The position numbers were made by a program, and so were the translations under genes. Shown piece after piece: positions 44,424-52,289 of a stretch of DNA of 64,000 bases. This DNA comes from an uncultured Gemmata sp. (GTDB taxonomy: Bacteria > Planctomycetota > Planctomycetia > Gemmatales > Gemmataceae): positions 62,001 through 126,000 of the forward strand of contig CALDUT010000001.1 of the NCBI GenBank assembly GCA_937924775.1, read 5' to 3'. Each line of letters begins with the position of its first letter. The first letter of the stretch is position 1. The notes beneath the pieces were generated by a model. It did no database searches and was not told where the DNA came from. It saw only the letters and a list, made by a program, of their open reading frames with translations.

Positions 44424-45527
44424 TCATTTGGACGCAGGTACCGACAGCATCCAGACCGCGAACGAGGCCAACCAGTGTTCCCCGGCATAATCCCCGCTGG
44501 CGACATGCTGCAGGCCGGCTTCGGCGTGCCGGGTGGCCGATGCGGCGAGGCGGGGCCGGGCCGGGTCGTCAGGGGGTAATGCGGTGAGAATGCCGCGTAA
44601 ACACCAGGCCCGGCTGAGGTTGAGCCCATCGAGGTGAACCAGTTGGGGATCACTGCGATCGGTCACAGTCGCCGGTGTAAAGAGAGTCGCCGGTTCTCCC
44701 TTGGCCGCGCCGGGGAGAAACTTGTGGAACCATTCGCGGAATTCGTGGGCCGGCAGCACGCGACGCATCAAATCGGCTACGCACAGGCTGGGGGAGAGGA
44801 AGTCGGCTCCGTCGGGTTCCCACCGCGCCGGGGCGTCGGTATCGCGGCCAAAGTACGTTTTGGCGCGTTCCTCGATCAATTCTTGCAACTTCTTATTACC
44901 GACGGTTTTCGCGTAATCGTGAGCAAAGGTCAACCCGAAGGCTGTGTTGGAATGAACACCGGCGCGGATGGGGTAGGTCTGCTTGGGGAAATATTCGATG
45001 TAACGGTCGGCAATCAATTCAGCTAACGGTCGAAGATTCGCGGACCACTTCTGGGCGTCGTTGTCGTCCCAGGTATGCAGTTCTTCAGCCAGTTTCAAAA
45101 GCCACGACCAGCCATAAGGCCGCTCAAACGATTTGGCTTCGGGACGCCGGAAATATTCAACCTCAGCACGGATATTAGCTGCAGTCAAGTGATCGTTGAG
45201 GACGGCGCGGATGTCTTCGGCCTCGGGTAAGTCGGGATAGGTGCGGAGGACGCGAACCAGCATCCAGTGCCCATGAACAGCCGAATGCCAATCGTAACAG
45301 CCGTAGAAAGCCGGATGGAGGGCTTTGGGAGTTTTGGCGTCGTTGGCATCGAGCAGCACATGCCCTGGTTTGTTGGGGAATTCTTTCTTGGCTCCCCGAA
45401 GGGCCAGTTTGGCGAAGGCCGAGGCCTGTTCGCGCGTCAAGGTTACCGCCGCGGCGGGCGGTTCAGCAGCAGGCATAACGACCAGACCAAGGAGGGATGC
45501 AACAACAACCAAAACCCCGCGTATCAC
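44424..45527 (-). CDS. Secreted DUF2891 protein
   Basis: 367 residues with a GTG start at 45527, chosen because AGGAG lies nine bases upstream and a signal peptide (MIRGVLVVVASLLGLVVMPA, with M for GTG) follows at once. The family is recognised by HPAFYGCYDWHSAVHGHW, ERPYGWSWLLKLA, HSNTAFGLT and WEPDGADFLSPSLC, with conserved His/Trp/Glu in an alpha/alpha-barrel-like fold. Function is unknown. It is 167 bases downstream of the caspase-like/S41 gene on the same strand, with a strong hairpin between. Confidence 0.85.
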   Translation of the reverse strand: MIRGVLVVVASLLGLVVMPAAEPPAAAVTLTREQASAFAKLALRGAKKEFPNKPGHVLLDANDAKTPKALHPAFYGCYDWHSAVHGHWMLVRVLRTYPDLPEAEDIRAVLNDHLTAANIRAEVEYFRRPEAKSFERPYGWSWLLKLAEELHTWDDNDAQKWSANLRPLAELIADRYIEYFPKQTYPIRAGVHSNTAFGLTFAHDYAKTVGNKKLQELIEERAKTYFGRDTDAPARWEPDGADFLSPSLCVADLMRRVLPAHEFREWFHKFLPGAAKGEPATLFTPATVTDRSDPQLVHLDGLNLSRAWCLRGILTALPPDDPARPRLAASATRHAEAGLQHVASGDYAGEHWLASFAVWMLSVPASK

Positions 45528-45643
45528 AACTCTTCTCTCCTGGAAAACCCAATGTCTTCCATCGGGTGACAGCTCCTGGGGGTGAACGGAAGGGTTTGGC
45601 GGTGAGAGCACGTGTTCACCACGGAAGCCAGCCGAAGGGAACA

Positions 45644-45685
45644 GTCCGTCGCGGGGTTCACGACACCCTGAACCTCGCGACGGAC
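45644..45685 (-). terminator. 17-bp stem after the S41/caspase-like gene
   Basis: The left arm (45644-45660, starting GTCCGTCGCG) and right arm (45669-45685, ending GCGACGGAC) pair over 17 positions with one G:T wobble and an 8-base loop. It begins ten bases after the stop codon of the protease gene. A strong terminator candidate without T-run. Confidence 0.6.
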
Positions 45686-45694
45686 AGGGCCTTG

Positions 45695-48304
45695 CTAGCG
45701 TTTGTTCTTGACCAATTCCTTGAGGTGTTCGTAGGCTTTTTGGAGCTGCTTATCTTTGGTCAGATCGACAGTGGGCGGATTTTGTCCGGCAGGGGGGATA
45801 ACCGCCAGATCACGAACGTATTCGTTCCATTCGACGCGTTCTTCGCGGGTGAGTTTGACCTCGAAGCCCGGGTCGGGTTTGACACCCCATTCATCCCGTT
45901 TCTTCAGTTCGGGGTCTTGCTCCGCAGCGACTTTGTCGATATTACGGCCGCTGGGCGGGTAATACCGGCCTTCAGTGTACTTCAGCCGACCGGTGGTCGG
46001 TTTGTACTCTTTCACCCCTTGAACGCTGCCTTTCCCGAAGCTGCGTTCGCCCACGATTGTGGCCCGGCCGTGGTCTTGCAGGCAGGCGGCCAGAATTTCA
46101 CTGGCACTGGCGCTGTAACCGTTGATGAGAACGACCATAGGGTAGCTCTTATCCCCGTCGATGCGGCCGCTGTAGGTGGTGTTTTCCGTTTGATCGCGGT
46201 AGCGGGTTTTGACAATCGGTTCCCGGCCCACGAACAACGCGCACATTTCAATGACCGCGGCCAGCGATCCGCCACCGTTGTTCCGCACATCGAGAATGAG
46301 GGCATTGAGGCCCGTTTTCTTCAGAGAATCCAAAGCCCGTTTGAGATCGGGATACGTTCCTTGATTACCGATAGTGTACAAGAAACTTTCGATGCGAATG
46401 TAGCCGATCTTCAAATCCGGATCCAGGTAATACGACCATTCCATGTTGTCTTTGCGGACCACACCGTGGATGGTTTCGACCATCACAAAATCCCGCAGGA
46501 TGCGGAATTCTTTGGGTTGTTTTTCCCCGTCGCGTTCGACAATCAGTGTCACCGGGGTTTTCTCTTTGCCGGTGATGAGTTTGACCGCGTCATCGGTTTT
46601 CATGCCCTTGGTGGAGAAAACCCGTTGGGCATCGGGCGGCAGCGGATTGCCGAGTTTGTCCACTTCGAGCCGGACTTCGGTGATGTGGTCGCCGGCTCGA
46701 ATGCCGGCCTTGAACGCGGGGCTGTGCAGAATCGGGCTGACGACCAACAGGCAGTCCTTGACCGCATCGCGGCGGATGATGATGCCCACTCCTGGAAAAC
46801 GGCCTTCGAGCTGCTTGGAGAAACTGAGCCACTCTTCGCGGTCCAGATAGAGGGTGTGCGGATCGTTGAGGCCCTGGAGCATGGCCCGCAGGGTGATGTC
46901 GGCGGCTTTGTCGCCATCGAGGTCTTCGCGTTTGCCCAGACGCATGCGGGCTTCCTGGAGAAGCTCGATCAGGCGGGTGTCGGCGAGTTCTTTGGGCGAT
47001 TTGAGGGCATCGGCCAGATCCGCCGGCAGCGGTTCATCCGCTTCCTGGTAGAGGCCGCGCAGCCCATAAGCGACCAGCTCCCCATGCGAAATGGGACGGA
47101 TGTATTCCATCGCCACTTGTCGGACCGCGGGCAGAACCTGCCGGACGTAGCGTTCGGCGTCGTCGGGGGCCAGTTTGAGGCTATCCAGCAGCGTTTTGCG
47201 AGCGGTTTCCAGCCGTTCGATGCTGCCACCGTCGGCAAGTTTTTGGTATTCTTTGCGGAGATTTTGTTGCCATTGCAGTTTCGGCATGCGCGAGAGTAAA
47301 CCATGCGCTTCCTTGGCGAGTTCAGCCGGAAGTTGCCCGGCTTTCGCCAAGGCCTCGATCGCTTCCAAACGTTTGCGAACCTTATCGGTTTCCGCGGGGT
47401 TACGTGTGACCCAGAATTTGCTGGTCAGCCCGCCGGCCATAAAGGGCGAAATCTCTTTTTCCTTATCGGTTTTGCCATGCTCCCGGGCGGCATTGGGGAT
47501 TTCTTTCTCCAAATACGCTACCAACTCTTTGACCGTCACCAGCCCGTCGGGTTCGTAGCCTTCGTTGTAGGGCGGTTGGTCGGCTTTCCCGCCCAGGCCC
47601 GCGGCCAGCACGGTGTAGAACAGGCCATGCTGGCCGATGGTCAGGGCATCCTGGTTGGGCAAATGGCCATAGACGATGAAACGGTTGGGCGGGGCCATGG
47701 CCGTGTCGTCCTCTTTGTCGCCAAAGAGGAGTTTGGCGTATTCGAGGATGTTGGGTTCGACGATCTTCTCGCCGCCGGCATCGATGCCACCTTTGTATTG
47801 CACGTCCATAAACATTGCGACGTTTTGTTTTTTCAGCTTTTTGAATGCGGCTTCGAGGTCGCTGACGACCAGGGCCGTTTTCGCCCGTTCCTTCACCGTG
47901 CTGTCGGTGGTGAAGAAGCAGGGTTTATCCGCTGTCGAGGTTCCGCGGCCGAAGAAAGCGATTAGCAGCAGATCATTCGGCCCAGTCGAGGTGATGGCAG
48001 TATCGATGGCCTTCACGATGGCCTCGCGTGTCGCTTGAGCCGATAACAGCAGCGTGGCCCGGTTGGCGGGGATCCCCAGATACTTGGGGTCGATGAGCAT
48101 GGCATGAAGGGCTTTGGCGTCAGCTTCGGCGGTGGGGCGGGGCGAAATCGCGGGATCGGTGAATTCTCCCACGCCGATGACAACGGCATAAGGTCCTTGC
48201 GGTTTACCCGGATCGCCTGGAGTTTCGGCAGCCCGTAGGGGTTGGAATCCGATGGCGAGCCATAACACGCACGCCCAAGCCAACAACCTCACACGCGTCT
48301 TCAT
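45695..48304 (-). CDS. Caspase-like (inactive) domain fused to S41 C-terminal processing protease
   Basis: 869 residues from ATG 48304 with signal peptide MKTRVRLLAWACVLWLAIGF. Residues about 38-210 match the peptidase C14 p20 fold (YAVVIGVGEF, ADAKALHAML, NDLLLIAFFGRG, MDVQYKGG). The catalytic His would be Arg120 (GRG for GHG) and the Cys would be Gln169 (DVQYKG for DACHSG), so this half is probably inactive. After a helical linker, a PDZ domain (about 500-560) and a C-terminal S41 protease follow with SASASEI (Ser733) and SFGKGSV (Lys758), 25 residues apart as in CtpA and Prc. A secreted tail-specific protease, probably in the periplasm. The p20 half may recognise substrates. Confidence 0.9.
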   Translation of the reverse strand: MKTRVRLLAWACVLWLAIGFQPLRAAETPGDPGKPQGPYAVVIGVGEFTDPAISPRPTAEADAKALHAMLIDPKYLGIPANRATLLLSAQATREAIVKAIDTAITSTGPNDLLLIAFFGRGTSTADKPCFFTTDSTVKERAKTALVVSDLEAAFKKLKKQNVAMFMDVQYKGGIDAGGEKIVEPNILEYAKLLFGDKEDDTAMAPPNRFIVYGHLPNQDALTIGQHGLFYTVLAAGLGGKADQPPYNEGYEPDGLVTVKELVAYLEKEIPNAAREHGKTDKEKEISPFMAGGLTSKFWVTRNPAETDKVRKRLEAIEALAKAGQLPAELAKEAHGLLSRMPKLQWQQNLRKEYQKLADGGSIERLETARKTLLDSLKLAPDDAERYVRQVLPAVRQVAMEYIRPISHGELVAYGLRGLYQEADEPLPADLADALKSPKELADTRLIELLQEARMRLGKREDLDGDKAADITLRAMLQGLNDPHTLYLDREEWLSFSKQLEGRFPGVGIIIRRDAVKDCLLVVSPILHSPAFKAGIRAGDHITEVRLEVDKLGNPLPPDAQRVFSTKGMKTDDAVKLITGKEKTPVTLIVERDGEKQPKEFRILRDFVMVETIHGVVRKDNMEWSYYLDPDLKIGYIRIESFLYTIGNQGTYPDLKRALDSLKKTGLNALILDVRNNGGGSLAAVIEMCALFVGREPIVKTRYRDQTENTTYSGRIDGDKSYPMVVLINGYSASASEILAACLQDHGRATIVGERSFGKGSVQGVKEYKPTTGRLKYTEGRYYPPSGRNIDKVAAEQDPELKKRDEWGVKPDPGFEVKLTREERVEWNEYVRDLAVIPPAGQNPPTVDLTKDKQLQKAYEHLKELVKNKR

Positions 48305-48675
48305 CAAAGCATCCTCAATTTGCGGCCGTCGCTGGCCCATCGTATGTTCTGATGTATTGTCCCGAATGGGCCGATGACGTCAACCGCAGTTGCACGCCGG
48401 AGAGTTTCAGGGGGGTATGTCGGGCAAGCCGGCGCGACTTGCCACAGTCACGGGAACTTGCGCCGGCATTTATCCCTATCCCATCATATCCGACGAACCA
48501 ACACTGGAATACTGACGCTGCGGTCTTTCACGGCCAGACGGGTCTTGTGGAATGGTTCATTTCTCTGGCATCATTGAGCGAGAAACCTTGACCGGATGGA
48601 TTTTGCGACAGGAATTGGCACATCAAGACCATCGCATCCCACGGGGCAGCAATCTTTTCTACCGACATCGCAGGA
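48305..48675. other. 371-bp gap without a recognised gene
   Basis: Between the S41/caspase-like start and the stop of the YiiX-like gene, both minus strand. No supported gene. It contains an 8-bp inverted repeat (GCCGGCGC at 48428-48435 with GCGCCGGC at 48460-48467). Probably the promoter and leader of the protease gene. Confidence 0.45.
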
Positions 48676-49548
48676 CTACGGATTTTCGGGTACATTCCAG
48701 CTTGTCCAGCGTGCGGGGGGATCCCACGCGGGGGCGAGTTTGAGGTGTTTGTTGAGGTAGAAATTGGGAGAACGATCCATGAAGAGATCTCGAGGATAAG
48801 TGGCGGAGGGTCGCGTCGTTTCCGGGTCGAGAAGTCCCGCGTAAACGCATGCTTCGCACACCAATTCGCTACAGAAGTATCCGCGGCGCTCCAAACCCTG
48901 GGGTTTGCCGACGAAAGCGGTTCGGAGTGGTCCGCGCGAACGGAACGGGGTCAATTGCCCGGCGAGGCGGCCGAGGGCGAAGTCCCGTTCGTTGACTGCC
49001 ATGGCGAATTCGGTGAGCCGGGCGGATTGTTCCGCGGTCAGAGGCACCGCGCGACGGCGAACCCAGACCCGGCCTTCCTGTTCGTAGCTCAGCATGTGGG
49101 GCAGAGCCTCCAACACACGGCATTTGAGCGTGTCGTGGGGTCCGCCTTCGAGAATGCCCATTTTCCCATCGGGCATCTGGAAGACGATCATCGAGTGGGT
49201 GGGGTGGCTGGTGCCTGCCAACCGGTGCATGGCCAACCAGAAACGAGAACCGTCGGCACTCAGGATAATGTCGCCCGGTTGGGGCGTGTAGGGACGAGCG
49301 GGCCCGCGGAGAACCGCGTCTTCACAATACGACGGCTGCCAGAGATATGACCCGCTTGGAGCCGGTTGGCCACGCCCCGGCAGGGCCAGCTCGGCCACTT
49401 TGGCACGCATCCGTTCCGCCGGTTGCCAGATCGGCGGCCAACGCTTTTCGCGGACGTAAGGCGGAGAACTCGGGGGCATTGTGGGATACAGCGAAGTGGA
49501 CGTGTCGGCCCCCAGGGCGCAGAGCGTCAGCACGCAAATCGGCGTCAT
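48676..49548 (-). CDS. YiiX/YaeF-like permuted papain-fold protein
   Basis: 290 residues with GAGGAG about nine bases before ATG 49548. A short N-terminal hydrophobic segment may be a signal peptide (MTPICVLTLCALGADTSTS). Family cues are PGDIILSADGSRFWLAMHR (about 90), HPTHSMIVFQ with a His, and RRGYFCSELVCEACVYAG near the C-terminus with the conserved Cys. YiiX-type proteins are permuted NlpC/P60 cysteine hydrolases acting on peptides, lipids or amides. The substrate is not predictable. Divergent from the metalloprotease gene. Confidence 0.78.
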   Translation of the reverse strand: MTPICVLTLCALGADTSTSLYPTMPPSSPPYVREKRWPPIWQPAERMRAKVAELALPGRGQPAPSGSYLWQPSYCEDAVLRGPARPYTPQPGDIILSADGSRFWLAMHRLAGTSHPTHSMIVFQMPDGKMGILEGGPHDTLKCRVLEALPHMLSYEQEGRVWVRRRAVPLTAEQSARLTEFAMAVNERDFALGRLAGQLTPFRSRGPLRTAFVGKPQGLERRGYFCSELVCEACVYAGLLDPETTRPSATYPRDLFMDRSPNFYLNKHLKLAPAWDPPARWTSWNVPENP

Positions 49549-49793: not shown

Positions 49794-52289
49794 ATGCGTA
49801 CCCGCGTCTTATGGAGTGTTGGTTGGATCGCCACGCTCGCCTTTCTGGCCGCGTCAGCCACTCCGTCCTTAATGGCGCAACAGCCGATCCTACCCAAGGG
49901 CCTACCCAAAGCCGGTGAGCTGAAGAAATACGACGATGTTATTACCAAAGACTTCAAAACCCAACCGGGGGTGTTCGCTGTTCATCGCCATGAGGACAAA
50001 GTCTACTTTGAAATTCCCCAAGAAGCCTTAGGGCGGCTGTTTTTGTGGTATGCCGAAGTCGCCAAAGGCCCGGGGGGCAACAGTTGGGGCGGAGCGACGC
50101 TGGGCCACACGGTGCTGAAGTTTGAGCGTCGCGGGAACAAGATTTATGTGTGGAAGGTGGGTTTTGCCAAGCGTTCGGATGGCAAAGCAGTGCAAGCCTC
50201 CGTGGAGGCCGCGGCGACAGATTCGATCGTCGCGGCTTTCAACGTGGAGTGCGAAGGGAAAGACCGCTCCGCGGTGATCAACGTTTCCGAGATTCTCATC
50301 AGTGGGCTACCGGATTTGCCGCTCAACCGGGCCGCCGGTGGAGGCGGAGGTACCCCTGATCCCAGCCGGTCGTATTTGAACGAAGTTCGGGCATTTCCGA
50401 CAAACATCGAATCGCGAGCCACAGTCACGTTCCGCGGCGGCGGAGCTGGTGGAGGACTTCCTGGTATGCCGCCGAGTTTGGGAGGGGGGCCTGCGACCCG
50501 CAGTGCCACCGCGGTGATTCACCAAAGCCTGGTGATTCTCCCGGAAACGCCCATGATGGGCCGGCTGTTCGATCCACGGGTGGGATACTTCACAGAAGAA
50601 TTCACCGATTATGCCCACCCGAAACAATGGGCCGTCAACAAGCAGTACATCAACCGCTACCGGCTAGAAAAGAAAGACCCGAAGGCTGAGGTGAGCGAAA
50701 CAGTCAAGCCGATTGTTTTCTACTTGGCCAACGAGATTCCCGAAAAATGGCGGCCCTATCTGAAAAAGGGAGTCGAAGATTGGCAGCCGGCGTTTGAAAA
50801 GGCGGGTTTCAAGAACGCGATCCTCTGCAAAGATGCCCCCTCCCGGGCTGAAGACCCCAATTGGGACCCGGAAGACGCCCGTTATAACGTCATCCGTTGG
50901 GTCGCTGAGCCGGTGGCCAACGCGATGGGGCCGCATGTTCACGATCCGCGTTCCGGAGAAGTCATTTCGGCCCACATCATCTTCTGGCACGATATTGTCA
51001 AACTGGTCCAGATGTGGTATTTTGTCCAGTGTTCAGCACTGGACCCTCGCGCCCGGAAGTTCCCTCTGCCCGATGAACTGACCGGCGAATTGCTCCGCTA
51101 CGTCGCGGCCCATGAAGTCGGGCATACCCTCGGTTTGCGGCACAACCACCGGGCCAGCCAGGCCTACAGCATCAGCCAACTGCGGGATCCGCAGTTTGTG
51201 GCGAAGTATGGGAATGTTGCATCGATCATGTCGTATGGCCGCTATAACTACGTCGCCCAACCGGAAGACAAGATCGATGTGAAACACCTGATTCCCGGCT
51301 TGGGGCCCTACGATTTCTTCGCGATCGAGTGGGGTTACAAACCGATTCCCAACGCCAAAACCCCGGAAGACGAAAAGAAAACGCTCGATGAATGGGCGGC
51401 CAAACAGATCGACAATCCCTTCCTGCGGTTCGGTGGAGAAGATGGCCCCGCGCGGGTGGATCCCACGGTGCTGACCGAAAACATCGGCAACGACCCCGTC
51501 CAGGCCACCGCCCTGGGGCTGAAGAATCTGGACCGCGTGATGGATCACCTGCTTCCTGCGACCACTGAAAAAGGCGAAGACTTCTCACTGTTGGAAGAAG
51601 TCTACGGAGAAATACTCAGCCATCGGGCCCGTTGGTTGGGGGCTGTGGTCAAGCAAGTGGGGGGCGTGGTCGAATACCGTACCCTCGGCGGCCGCGGTGG
51701 CGAAGCCTTCGTTCGCGTCCCCAAAGAGAAACAGAAGGAAGCAGTGAAATTCCTCCTCGATCACGCCTTCACAACACCCACGAAATTGCTCAACCCCGGG
51801 ATTATCAACCAGTTCAAATACACTGGAGCCGCGGCGGGCATTGCCGCCCAGCAACGCCAATTGCTCGCGTCGCTACTGTCGGCCGACCGCTTGGCCCGCC
51901 TGGCCGACGCGGAACTACTGGCTCCCGACAAGGCCTACACCGTGATGGAATTGCTCAGCGACTTGCAAGAAGGCCTCTTTGCCGAGCTGAAAACCGATGC
52001 GCCAAGGATCGACCCACTGCGGCGGCAACTCCAGCGAGCGTACCTCGACCTTCTGAAGGCTGAGTTCCAACCCCCAGCCGCAGCGCCGCCACCGGGCAAT
52101 ATGCCCGCGGTGGGCGGAAGTGGTTCGCGCCTAGCCAGCGAACTGCGGGCTGTGGCCCGGCTGACCCTGGCTCAACTCGCCAAACAGTTGGAGCAAGCCA
52201 AGTCGAAGACGACAGAGCCGCTGACGCTGGCCCACATCACCGATTTGGCCAGCGAGATTCAAGCCCTTCTCAGCCCTGAGAAGAAGTGA
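49794..52289 (+). CDS. Secreted zinc metalloprotease (DUF5117/DUF4953)
   Basis: 831 residues from ATG 49794, with CAGGTG upstream and signal peptide (VGWIATLAFLAASATPSLMA). The DUF5117-like N-terminal beta region includes KVYFEIPQEALGRLFLWYAEV. The zincin motif HEVGHTLGLRH starts at His440, with the third ligand in the same motif. ASIMSYGRYNYVAQPEDK is a Met-turn candidate. A helical C-terminal domain (about 560-831, DUF4953-like) closes the protein. An extracytoplasmic zinc endopeptidase of a type frequent in planctomycetes. Gly-rich insertions (GGGGGTPDPS, GGGAGGGLPG) are present in the propeller-like part. Confidence 0.9.
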   Translation: MRTRVLWSVGWIATLAFLAASATPSLMAQQPILPKGLPKAGELKKYDDVITKDFKTQPGVFAVHRHEDKVYFEIPQEALGRLFLWYAEVAKGPGGNSWGGATLGHTVLKFERRGNKIYVWKVGFAKRSDGKAVQASVEAAATDSIVAAFNVECEGKDRSAVINVSEILISGLPDLPLNRAAGGGGGTPDPSRSYLNEVRAFPTNIESRATVTFRGGGAGGGLPGMPPSLGGGPATRSATAVIHQSLVILPETPMMGRLFDPRVGYFTEEFTDYAHPKQWAVNKQYINRYRLEKKDPKAEVSETVKPIVFYLANEIPEKWRPYLKKGVEDWQPAFEKAGFKNAILCKDAPSRAEDPNWDPEDARYNVIRWVAEPVANAMGPHVHDPRSGEVISAHIIFWHDIVKLVQMWYFVQCSALDPRARKFPLPDELTGELLRYVAAHEVGHTLGLRHNHRASQAYSISQLRDPQFVAKYGNVASIMSYGRYNYVAQPEDKIDVKHLIPGLGPYDFFAIEWGYKPIPNAKTPEDEKKTLDEWAAKQIDNPFLRFGGEDGPARVDPTVLTENIGNDPVQATALGLKNLDRVMDHLLPATTEKGEDFSLLEEVYGEILSHRARWLGAVVKQVGGVVEYRTLGGRGGEAFVRVPKEKQKEAVKFLLDHAFTTPTKLLNPGIINQFKYTGAAAGIAAQQRQLLASLLSADRLARLADAELLAPDKAYTVMELLSDLQEGLFAELKTDAPRIDPLRRQLQRAYLDLLKAEFQPPAAAPPPGNMPAVGGSGSRLASELRAVARLTLAQLAKQLEQAKSKTTEPLTLAHITDLASEIQALLSPEKK

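Follow-up and report, generated by a model that had tools for sequence, protein, structure and literature searches.

In a 64,000-nucleotide stretch of the genome of an uncultured Gemmata sp. (contig CALDUT010000001.1, positions 62,001–126,000, the whole of which is called the window below), a single gene on the minus strand (45695..48304, read from 48304 to 45695) encodes a protein of 869 amino acids that joins a putative signal peptide, a caspase-like domain, a helical region, a PDZ region and an S41 protease. The caspase-like domain has lost its His-Cys catalytic dyad and, dead as a protease itself, has probably been retained as a control element for the live one. The reading that we favour, with modest confidence, is that of an exported S41A protease whose fused pseudo-orthocaspase is kept, dyad lost, as a binding or gating module acting on the S41 unit. 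The parts are ordinary; what is unusual is their union and the strict keeping of both the loss and the fusion.

The caspase-like domain (C14 p20-type, residues 38–312, 47369..48193, minus, delimited by Pfam, NCBIfam, profile and model matches) has Arg120 (47945..47947, minus) at the place of the catalytic His, with GRG for GHG in the motif AFFGRGTS, and Gln169 (47798..47800, minus) at the place of the catalytic Cys, with DVQ for DxC in FMDVQYKGG. A preliminary description of the locus, which gave no strand, had reported GHG turned into GRG and DACHSG into DVQYKG, and both changes are confirmed in the minus-strand translation. The relatives used for counting come from one order, taken to be Gemmatales from its named members (Gemmata, Gemmataceae); the alignment holds 92 of 98 fused places found at E ≤1e-20 and six copies from named contigs, i.e. 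99 rows with the query, 91 of them distinct. None of the 91 distinct domains retains the dyad, His at 120 and Cys at 169 both being missing throughout: position 120 is occupied by Arg (36), Gln (33), Glu (9), Asn (7), Ser (5) or Ala (1), and position 169 by Asn (37), Gln (16), His (16), Ala (9), Asp (7), Ser (4), Thr (1) or Tyr (1). The preliminary description had allowed for an intact His and Cys elsewhere in the domain, and this did not materialize: none of the 91 distinct relatives has a His within four columns of position 120, none has a Cys at 169, and a Cys one column off, at 168, occurs in two relatives, both with Asn at 120. Gly121 is kept in all 91. The replacements at 120/169 form 17 kinds of pairs, the commonest being Gln/Asn (23) and Arg/Gln (16), and therefore no substitute dyad has been fixed; the column entropies at these positions are 1.96 and 2.23 bits, versus a domain mean of 1.86. 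Six fused places lie outside the alignment: G447, at a contig end, and five extra copies (G472, G474, G475, G476 and G487) that all have Gln/Asn at the dyad, the first four of these with the S41 Ser and Lys in frame and G487 broken by an in-frame stop and a contig end. The loss is not an effect of the alignment, because homologues without S41, treated with the identical profile and alignment method, display His and Cys in 55 of 70 rows; of the remaining 15, three have His but are gapped at the Cys column, and in 12 at least one of the two residues is missing. Note that these 70 rows contain one protein twice (L006 = L210) and some near-copies, and that 'without S41' means none in the open frame covered.

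By sequence and model matches, the N-terminal domain has the C14 caspase-type fold. Isolated residues 36–312 match Pfam PF00656 (C14) with 32 bits (E 1.3e-7), above the cut-off of 21.4, and this 277-residue domain also spans the region after p20. The NCBIfam model caspase_w_EACC1 (NF047832) matches the isolated window domain with E 1.9e-15 and 57 bits, short of the curated cut-off of 140 bits, so that the domain is not counted among the EACC1-associated caspases; on the whole protein the same model covers residues 40–170 (E 1.5e-14, below its own cut-off). Among 57 diverse members of the family, the NCBIfam model matches 57, and 43 of the isolated domains match Pfam C14 at E ≤0.01; in whole-protein Pfam scans the caspase domain is visible in four of seven full-length close relatives. 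A search of the PDB with a profile built from the 57 members yields metacaspases (best E 2e-5); in both alignments shown, their GHG falls on the GxG of the family. Finally, an AlphaFold2 model of the domain, made from seven sequences (predicted local distance difference test, pLDDT, 73.7; predicted template modelling score, pTM, 0.81), has metacaspase-4 as its best Foldseek match (E 1.2e-8, TM-score 0.55, root-mean-square deviation 11.7 over Foldseek's own alignment) and also matches Geobacter GSU0716, MALT1 and caspases; VIA-align superposes it on metacaspase-4 with Z 20.0 (212 residues aligned, root-mean-square deviation 2.8 Å) and on GSU0716 with Z 17.7. The p20-type fold claimed beforehand is thus upheld by the isolated-domain Pfam and NCBIfam matches and by the structural comparisons with metacaspases and caspases, and a predicted structure unlike C14, named then as the outcome that would speak against it, was not obtained. 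Given the residues at its dyad places, we class the domain as homologous to family C14 without counting it among the peptidases of that family.

The S41 protease, for its part, looks intact. The Peptidase_S41 core (residues 632–797, 45914..46411, minus) matches Pfam with E 1e-46 and TIGR00225 prc with E 6e-81, above cut-off, and the best solved relatives of the C-terminal half are carboxyl-terminal proteases (9jr1, E 5.9e-41). Ser733 (SASASE; 46106..46108, minus) and Lys758 (FGKGSVQ; 46031..46033, minus), which from the family we take to be the nucleophile and the general base, are present in the window, as first described, and in all 88 distinct relatives that include this part; Gln762 is kept in 85 of the 88. 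The S41 columns are missing in L075 (frame change), L079 (contig end) and L091 (frame change). In L075 (G397) and L091 (G418:C303), the fusion is split into two overlapping frames, by sequencing error or by a real frameshift. Upstream of the core, a PDZ region (residues ~509–592, 46529..46780, minus) is marked by weak Pfam PDZ matches that in the window stay below cut-off (best E 0.00053); PDZ_6 is found at E ≤0.01 in seven of seven close relatives, window included. With its Ser-Lys pair and PDZ region, the C-terminal half is assigned from its sequence to the S41A C-terminal processing proteases (CTPs). The region between the two domains (residues 313–455, 46940..47368, minus) is mostly helical in a low-confidence full-length model.

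The minus-strand translation of 45695–48304 opens with MKTRVRLLAWACVLWLAIGF. Starting from another in-frame ATG, at 48340, would make the protein 12 residues longer; we favour 48304, since in six relatives the corresponding position is a Met as well, followed by a similar stretch (e.g. MKARVWLLG). Residues 1–25 (48230..48304, minus) consist of a basic KTRVR, the core LLAWACVLWLAIGF and then QPLRA, and read, by inspection of the sequence, as an export-type N-terminus. By a crude hydrophobicity test, 90 of 91 distinct relatives carry, no more than 45 residues ahead of the caspase domain, a hydrophobic 11-residue segment with a mean Kyte-Doolittle value of ≥1.5, compared with 17% of random slices. 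Of the preliminary statement that a signal peptide puts the protein outside the cytoplasm, the export-type N-terminus therefore stands, and for the location of the fusion protein we infer the periplasm.

Conservation of the fusion and of the dyad loss, which the preliminary description had proposed to look for in planctomycete proteomes, is extensive. In a profile search of 102 genomes from the order, 90 contain the domain (best E ≤9e-76 in every case), and the same continuous open frame, caspase-like plus S41, recurs in dozens of assemblies. Lowering the threshold to E 1e-4 gives 92 genomes, two of which have weak matches only (G409, 7e-5; G416, 5e-6); 10 of the 12 genomes without a strong match are less than 90% complete. 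In a class-wide sample of 397 genomes, the next best match drops to E 1.2e-41 and lies in G493, from a second order, represented by three genomes, all three of which carry a caspase-like/S41 fusion in one frame; the two matches that come after it, both in G361, are caspase-WD40 proteins with an intact dyad. Outside the class, 20 regions from the best 25 matches in the wider phylum show no S41, and a full-length search of 392 phylum genomes, which scored two candidates per genome, gave matches that, among those listed outside the window's genome, cover the S41 part only. Note that the phylum (392 genomes) and class (397 genomes) searches are samples, in which at most six candidates were scored per genome.

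The three second-order fusions keep the S41 motifs and have PDZ matches above cut-off. Their dyad places depend on an unsure alignment: Ser/Cys in L178, Ser/Ser or Ser/gap in L180, and Arg/His or Arg/gap in L237, which has a His one column after position 120. The genome carrying L237 (G496) is missed by the profile at E 1e-15 and was found with the L178 protein as query. L178 (in G493), with the Cys kept and Ser at the His place, suggests, as a single sequence, a stepwise decay of the dyad.

A quick tree of caspase domains was built from 29 first-order fusions, three second-order ones and 55 S41-less domains (two dyad columns removed, no bootstrap); a branch with a Shimodaira-Hasegawa-like approximate likelihood ratio support of 97 has every fused domain on the same side. 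The S41-domain tree, for which the program warned of long branches, places the first-order fusions on one branch (97%) and the three second-order fusions beside long free S41 rows (81%). Because the S41 tree separates the second-order fusions, and does so under that warning, the case for one fusion event is carried mainly by the caspase tree and by the architecture that the fusions share. As far as sequences can tell, the fusion is old; by parsimony, the dyad would have been lost before the order radiated, and the domain kept since as a non-catalytic module.

Ratios of nonsynonymous to synonymous substitution rates (dN/dS) were computed for the caspase part, the linker and the S41 part, respectively: 0.046, 0.069 and 0.010 for the window and L037; 0.067, 0.227 and 0.049 for L047/L048; 0.044, 0.093 and 0.037 for L056/L058; and 0, 0.055 and 0.010 for L050/L051, a pair with few changes. 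In each of the first three pairs, the caspase part thus ranks between the S41 part, which has the lowest ratio, and the linker. The values are rough, as some pairs have diverged strongly at synonymous sites (dS up to 1.7). Judged by these ratios, the caspase-like domain is under purifying selection, held and not drifting.

A second degenerate caspase-like protein is encoded in the window's genome (L210:693-3623, minus; G000:C18 near 149254-149640; an open frame of 977 amino acids), in which Arg replaces the catalytic His and Glu the catalytic Cys. Proteins L139, L140, L141 and L143, from other genomes of the order, likewise have Arg/Asp or Arg/Glu.

Asp62 (48119..48121, minus; Asp in 91/91) and Asp167, the D of DxC (47804..47806, minus; Asp in 90/91), occupy the places of the first and second acidic S1-pocket residues, which we equate with TbMCA2 Asp95 and Asp211 by motif, not by superposition. 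Two arginines mark the fused group: Arg56 (48137..48139, minus), found in 55 of 57 fused rows and in 87 of 91 distinct relatives, where 49 of 55 His+Cys rows have Leu, and Arg140 (47885..47887, minus), found in 54 of 57 fused rows and in 87 of 91 relatives, where the His+Cys rows most often have Leu (30/55). They are sited before the first helix and after the third strand of the model, and the place of Arg56 looks, by register and not by superposition, like that of the S1 arginine of animal caspases. Arg56 and Arg140 may alter or plug the S1 pocket. According to passages of PMC4357240, such regions help to form the substrate cleft of clan CD enzymes. In parts of PMC4357240 and PMC6426788, Asp95 and Asp211 of TbMCA2 are described as acidic S1 residues through which metacaspases accommodate basic side chains.

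A pattern search further revealed an EF-hand-like loop at residues 249–260 (GYEPDGLVTVKE; 47525..47560, minus), with Gly for Asp at the first ligand position. The relaxed pattern, which allows Gly there, occurs in 84 of 91 fused domains and in 0.05% of shuffles. An intact calcium loop is ruled out in the fused domains by the missing first Asp in 91 of 91, and calcium binding by the modified loop is, from its sequence, a lead only. Some planctomycete homologues without S41 have a canonical EF-hand-like loop late in the domain (e.g. DGNGDGVVTAFE), in 16 of 55 by the strict and in 24 of 55 by the relaxed pattern. Conservation within the domain peaks at residues 238–257 (mean entropy 1.04 bits versus 1.86 overall); loops L1 and L3 have 1.72 and 1.58 bits.

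How might a dead caspase domain serve a live protease? As stated in sections of PMC12749690, PMC6686036, PMC11021448 and PMC8764530, activation of CTPs typically comes from a substrate bound to the PDZ domain or from an adaptor; because known CTPs are controlled in these ways, the most parsimonious reading is that of a fused adaptor or gate. From the architecture, the purifying selection and the control of other CTPs, we infer that the dead domain may deliver substrate to the S41 protease or gate it. The domain would act in cis on the S41 unit, in the periplasm. The most likely way would be for its old cleft, with the acidic S1 residues and the modified EF-hand-like loop kept, to bind a peptide or an ion; the bound domain would then present substrates to the PDZ-controlled protease or gate it, in the way that Pseudomonas CtpA is served by its separate partner LbcA. 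CtpA-LbcA of Pseudomonas aeruginosa, as far as the passages available go, is our working analogy in that a binding partner controls a CTP; unlike LbcA, which is a separate lipoprotein, the partner proposed here is fused and caspase-like.

Several observations weigh against a fused module that binds a ligand. Asp62 and Asp167 are equally conserved in dyad-bearing homologues (53/55 and 55/55), and their conservation may be structural in origin. The EF-hand-like loop has Asp at its first ligand position in none of the 91 fused domains, and a review suggests, in the part available, that orthocaspases are activated without calcium (PMC5756287). L5, part of the clan CD substrate cleft, shows above-average variability (2.31 bits) and L4 is average (1.91); with this mixed picture of element-wise entropy, we discarded the idea of a clear-cut conserved cleft. 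In one pair with few changes (L110/L112), the dN/dS of the linker (0.033) is slightly lower than that of the caspase part (0.039; S41, 0.015). As to the domain assignment itself, the C14 model gives no match at E 0.01 for 14 of the 57 isolated members, and a whole-protein Pfam scan of the window protein passes cut-offs for S41 only, leaving the caspase domain unreported. Lastly, the full-length two-domain model is unusable (pLDDT 58, pTM 0.37).

A more specific proposal, which we advance tentatively and think rather unlikely, is that the exported caspase fold has turned into a ligand sensor in cis, whose dead cleft would read basic peptides or calcium and open the tail-specific protease. The dead domain could also be a scaffold only, setting the oligomer geometry, stability or folding of the protease with no ligand bound, to which we attach a similarly low probability. 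The variable cleft loop L5 speaks for such a scaffold, as do the differences in oligomeric assembly among CTPs (PMC12749690, in part), and the conserved loop 238–257 joins two helices in the model and could be structural; against it, the arginines specific to the fused group, Arg56 and Arg140, lie in regions that passages of PMC4357240 describe as cleft-forming and fit, if weakly, a changed binding site.

A decoy role, in which the domain would bind active caspase homologues, whether from the same cell or from competitors, and hold them in check, is improbable. In animals, c-FLIP is a decoy of this kind, restraining active caspases. At least 10 genomes of the order, among the loci read, also carry His+Cys homologues; however, the fusion has an export-type N-terminus, and the window's own genome has one other caspase-like match at E 0.001, itself dyad-less (only part of the candidates being profile-scored). 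We find it more improbable still that the domain is catalytic with other residues, or that it is the S41 part that is dead. Most of the old active sites are indeed occupied by polar residues (R, Q, N, E at 120; N, Q, H at 169), but both positions vary, with 17 pairs and entropies above the domain mean, and the S41 Ser/Lys pair is invariant, with Gln762 nearly so. That the N-terminal domain is no caspase homologue, or that the fusion is an assembly or annotation error, as the whole-protein Pfam scan missing C14 might suggest, is hardly credible and already contradicted by the isolated-domain Pfam match above cut-off, the 57/57 NCBIfam matches, the fold matches and the one continuous open frame in dozens of assemblies.

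The protein can be compared with several known systems. In separase, a dead caspase-like domain stands beside a live protease domain in one chain; both domains of separase belong to the caspase clan, unlike here, where the live partner is a serine protease. To our knowledge, no S41A CTP with a caspase-like domain is known. With CtpA, CtpB and Prc, the protein shares the PDZ and S41 core, the Ser-Lys pair, the export-type N-terminus and a TIGR00225 prc match above cut-off. Dead caspase homologues themselves are not new: in the sections available, pseudo-orthocaspases make up 8.6% of bacterial orthocaspases, 90% of them being from Alphaproteobacteria and Cyanobacteria with YS as the most prevalent pair (PMC6426788), and only 64% of planctomycete sequences keep the dyad (PMC3501461). 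As in the pseudo-orthocaspases of those sections of PMC6426788, a C14-type p20 without the His-Cys dyad retains both acidic S1-pocket Asp residues (the equivalence being by motif only), and their YS variant has an N-terminus resembling a twin-arginine translocation signal; unlike them, with C-termini described there as TPR or unassigned, the present domain has an S41 partner, and unlike the YS variant it has no Tyr at the His place, with 17 pairs in 91 sequences. Other bacterial caspase architectures, some from Gemmata, are presented in portions of PMC8195603, and further ones in portions of PMC7159879. The term 'S41' occurs in these two papers in reference DOIs only (three each) and does not occur in the main texts of PMC6426788 and PMC3501461. 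PMC10723553, considered as a possible prior report, proved unrelated, the passage in question merely listing both domain names among peptidase genes. Among the matches listed in the openly licensed literature, we found no report of a caspase-like/S41 fusion, which is not proof of its absence from print; as far as that literature goes, the new architecture announced in the preliminary description is borne out.

The surroundings of the gene were also considered. On the strand opposite the protease half runs a 600-codon open frame (45497-47299, plus); relatives repeatedly show open antisense frames too, and this one is most likely a by-product of codon use. Upstream on the same strand, the gene at 48676-49548 (minus) has a marginal match to the C92 papain-like family (E 0.38), and 49794-52286 (plus) encodes a zincin with a signal-like start (DUF5117/DUF4953/DUF5118, best E 4.1e-105) of which, among the loci compared, a neighbourhood copy is common to L037 only. 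The flanking genes of the window are common to L037, a near-identical relative. L041 and L042, with ~6 kb on each side, have no flanking match, bar one weak kinase-type match in L041 (27% identity), and we set the neighbourhood aside as a functional clue; loci other than these three have little flanking sequence.

The window protein falls into an annotation blind spot, in that a whole-protein Pfam scan passes cut-offs for S41 only. The dead domain described here is tied, across most of an order, to one protease with assayable activity, and dyad-bearing homologues as well as a partly degraded sister group, one member of which has kept the Cys, provide material for comparison. What a dead caspase does in a bacterium is directly testable because of this assayable protease partner, the order-wide presence and the homologues for comparison. 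If the ligand-sensor proposal is true, the fusion would serve most cells of the order as a built-in device for controlling the envelope.

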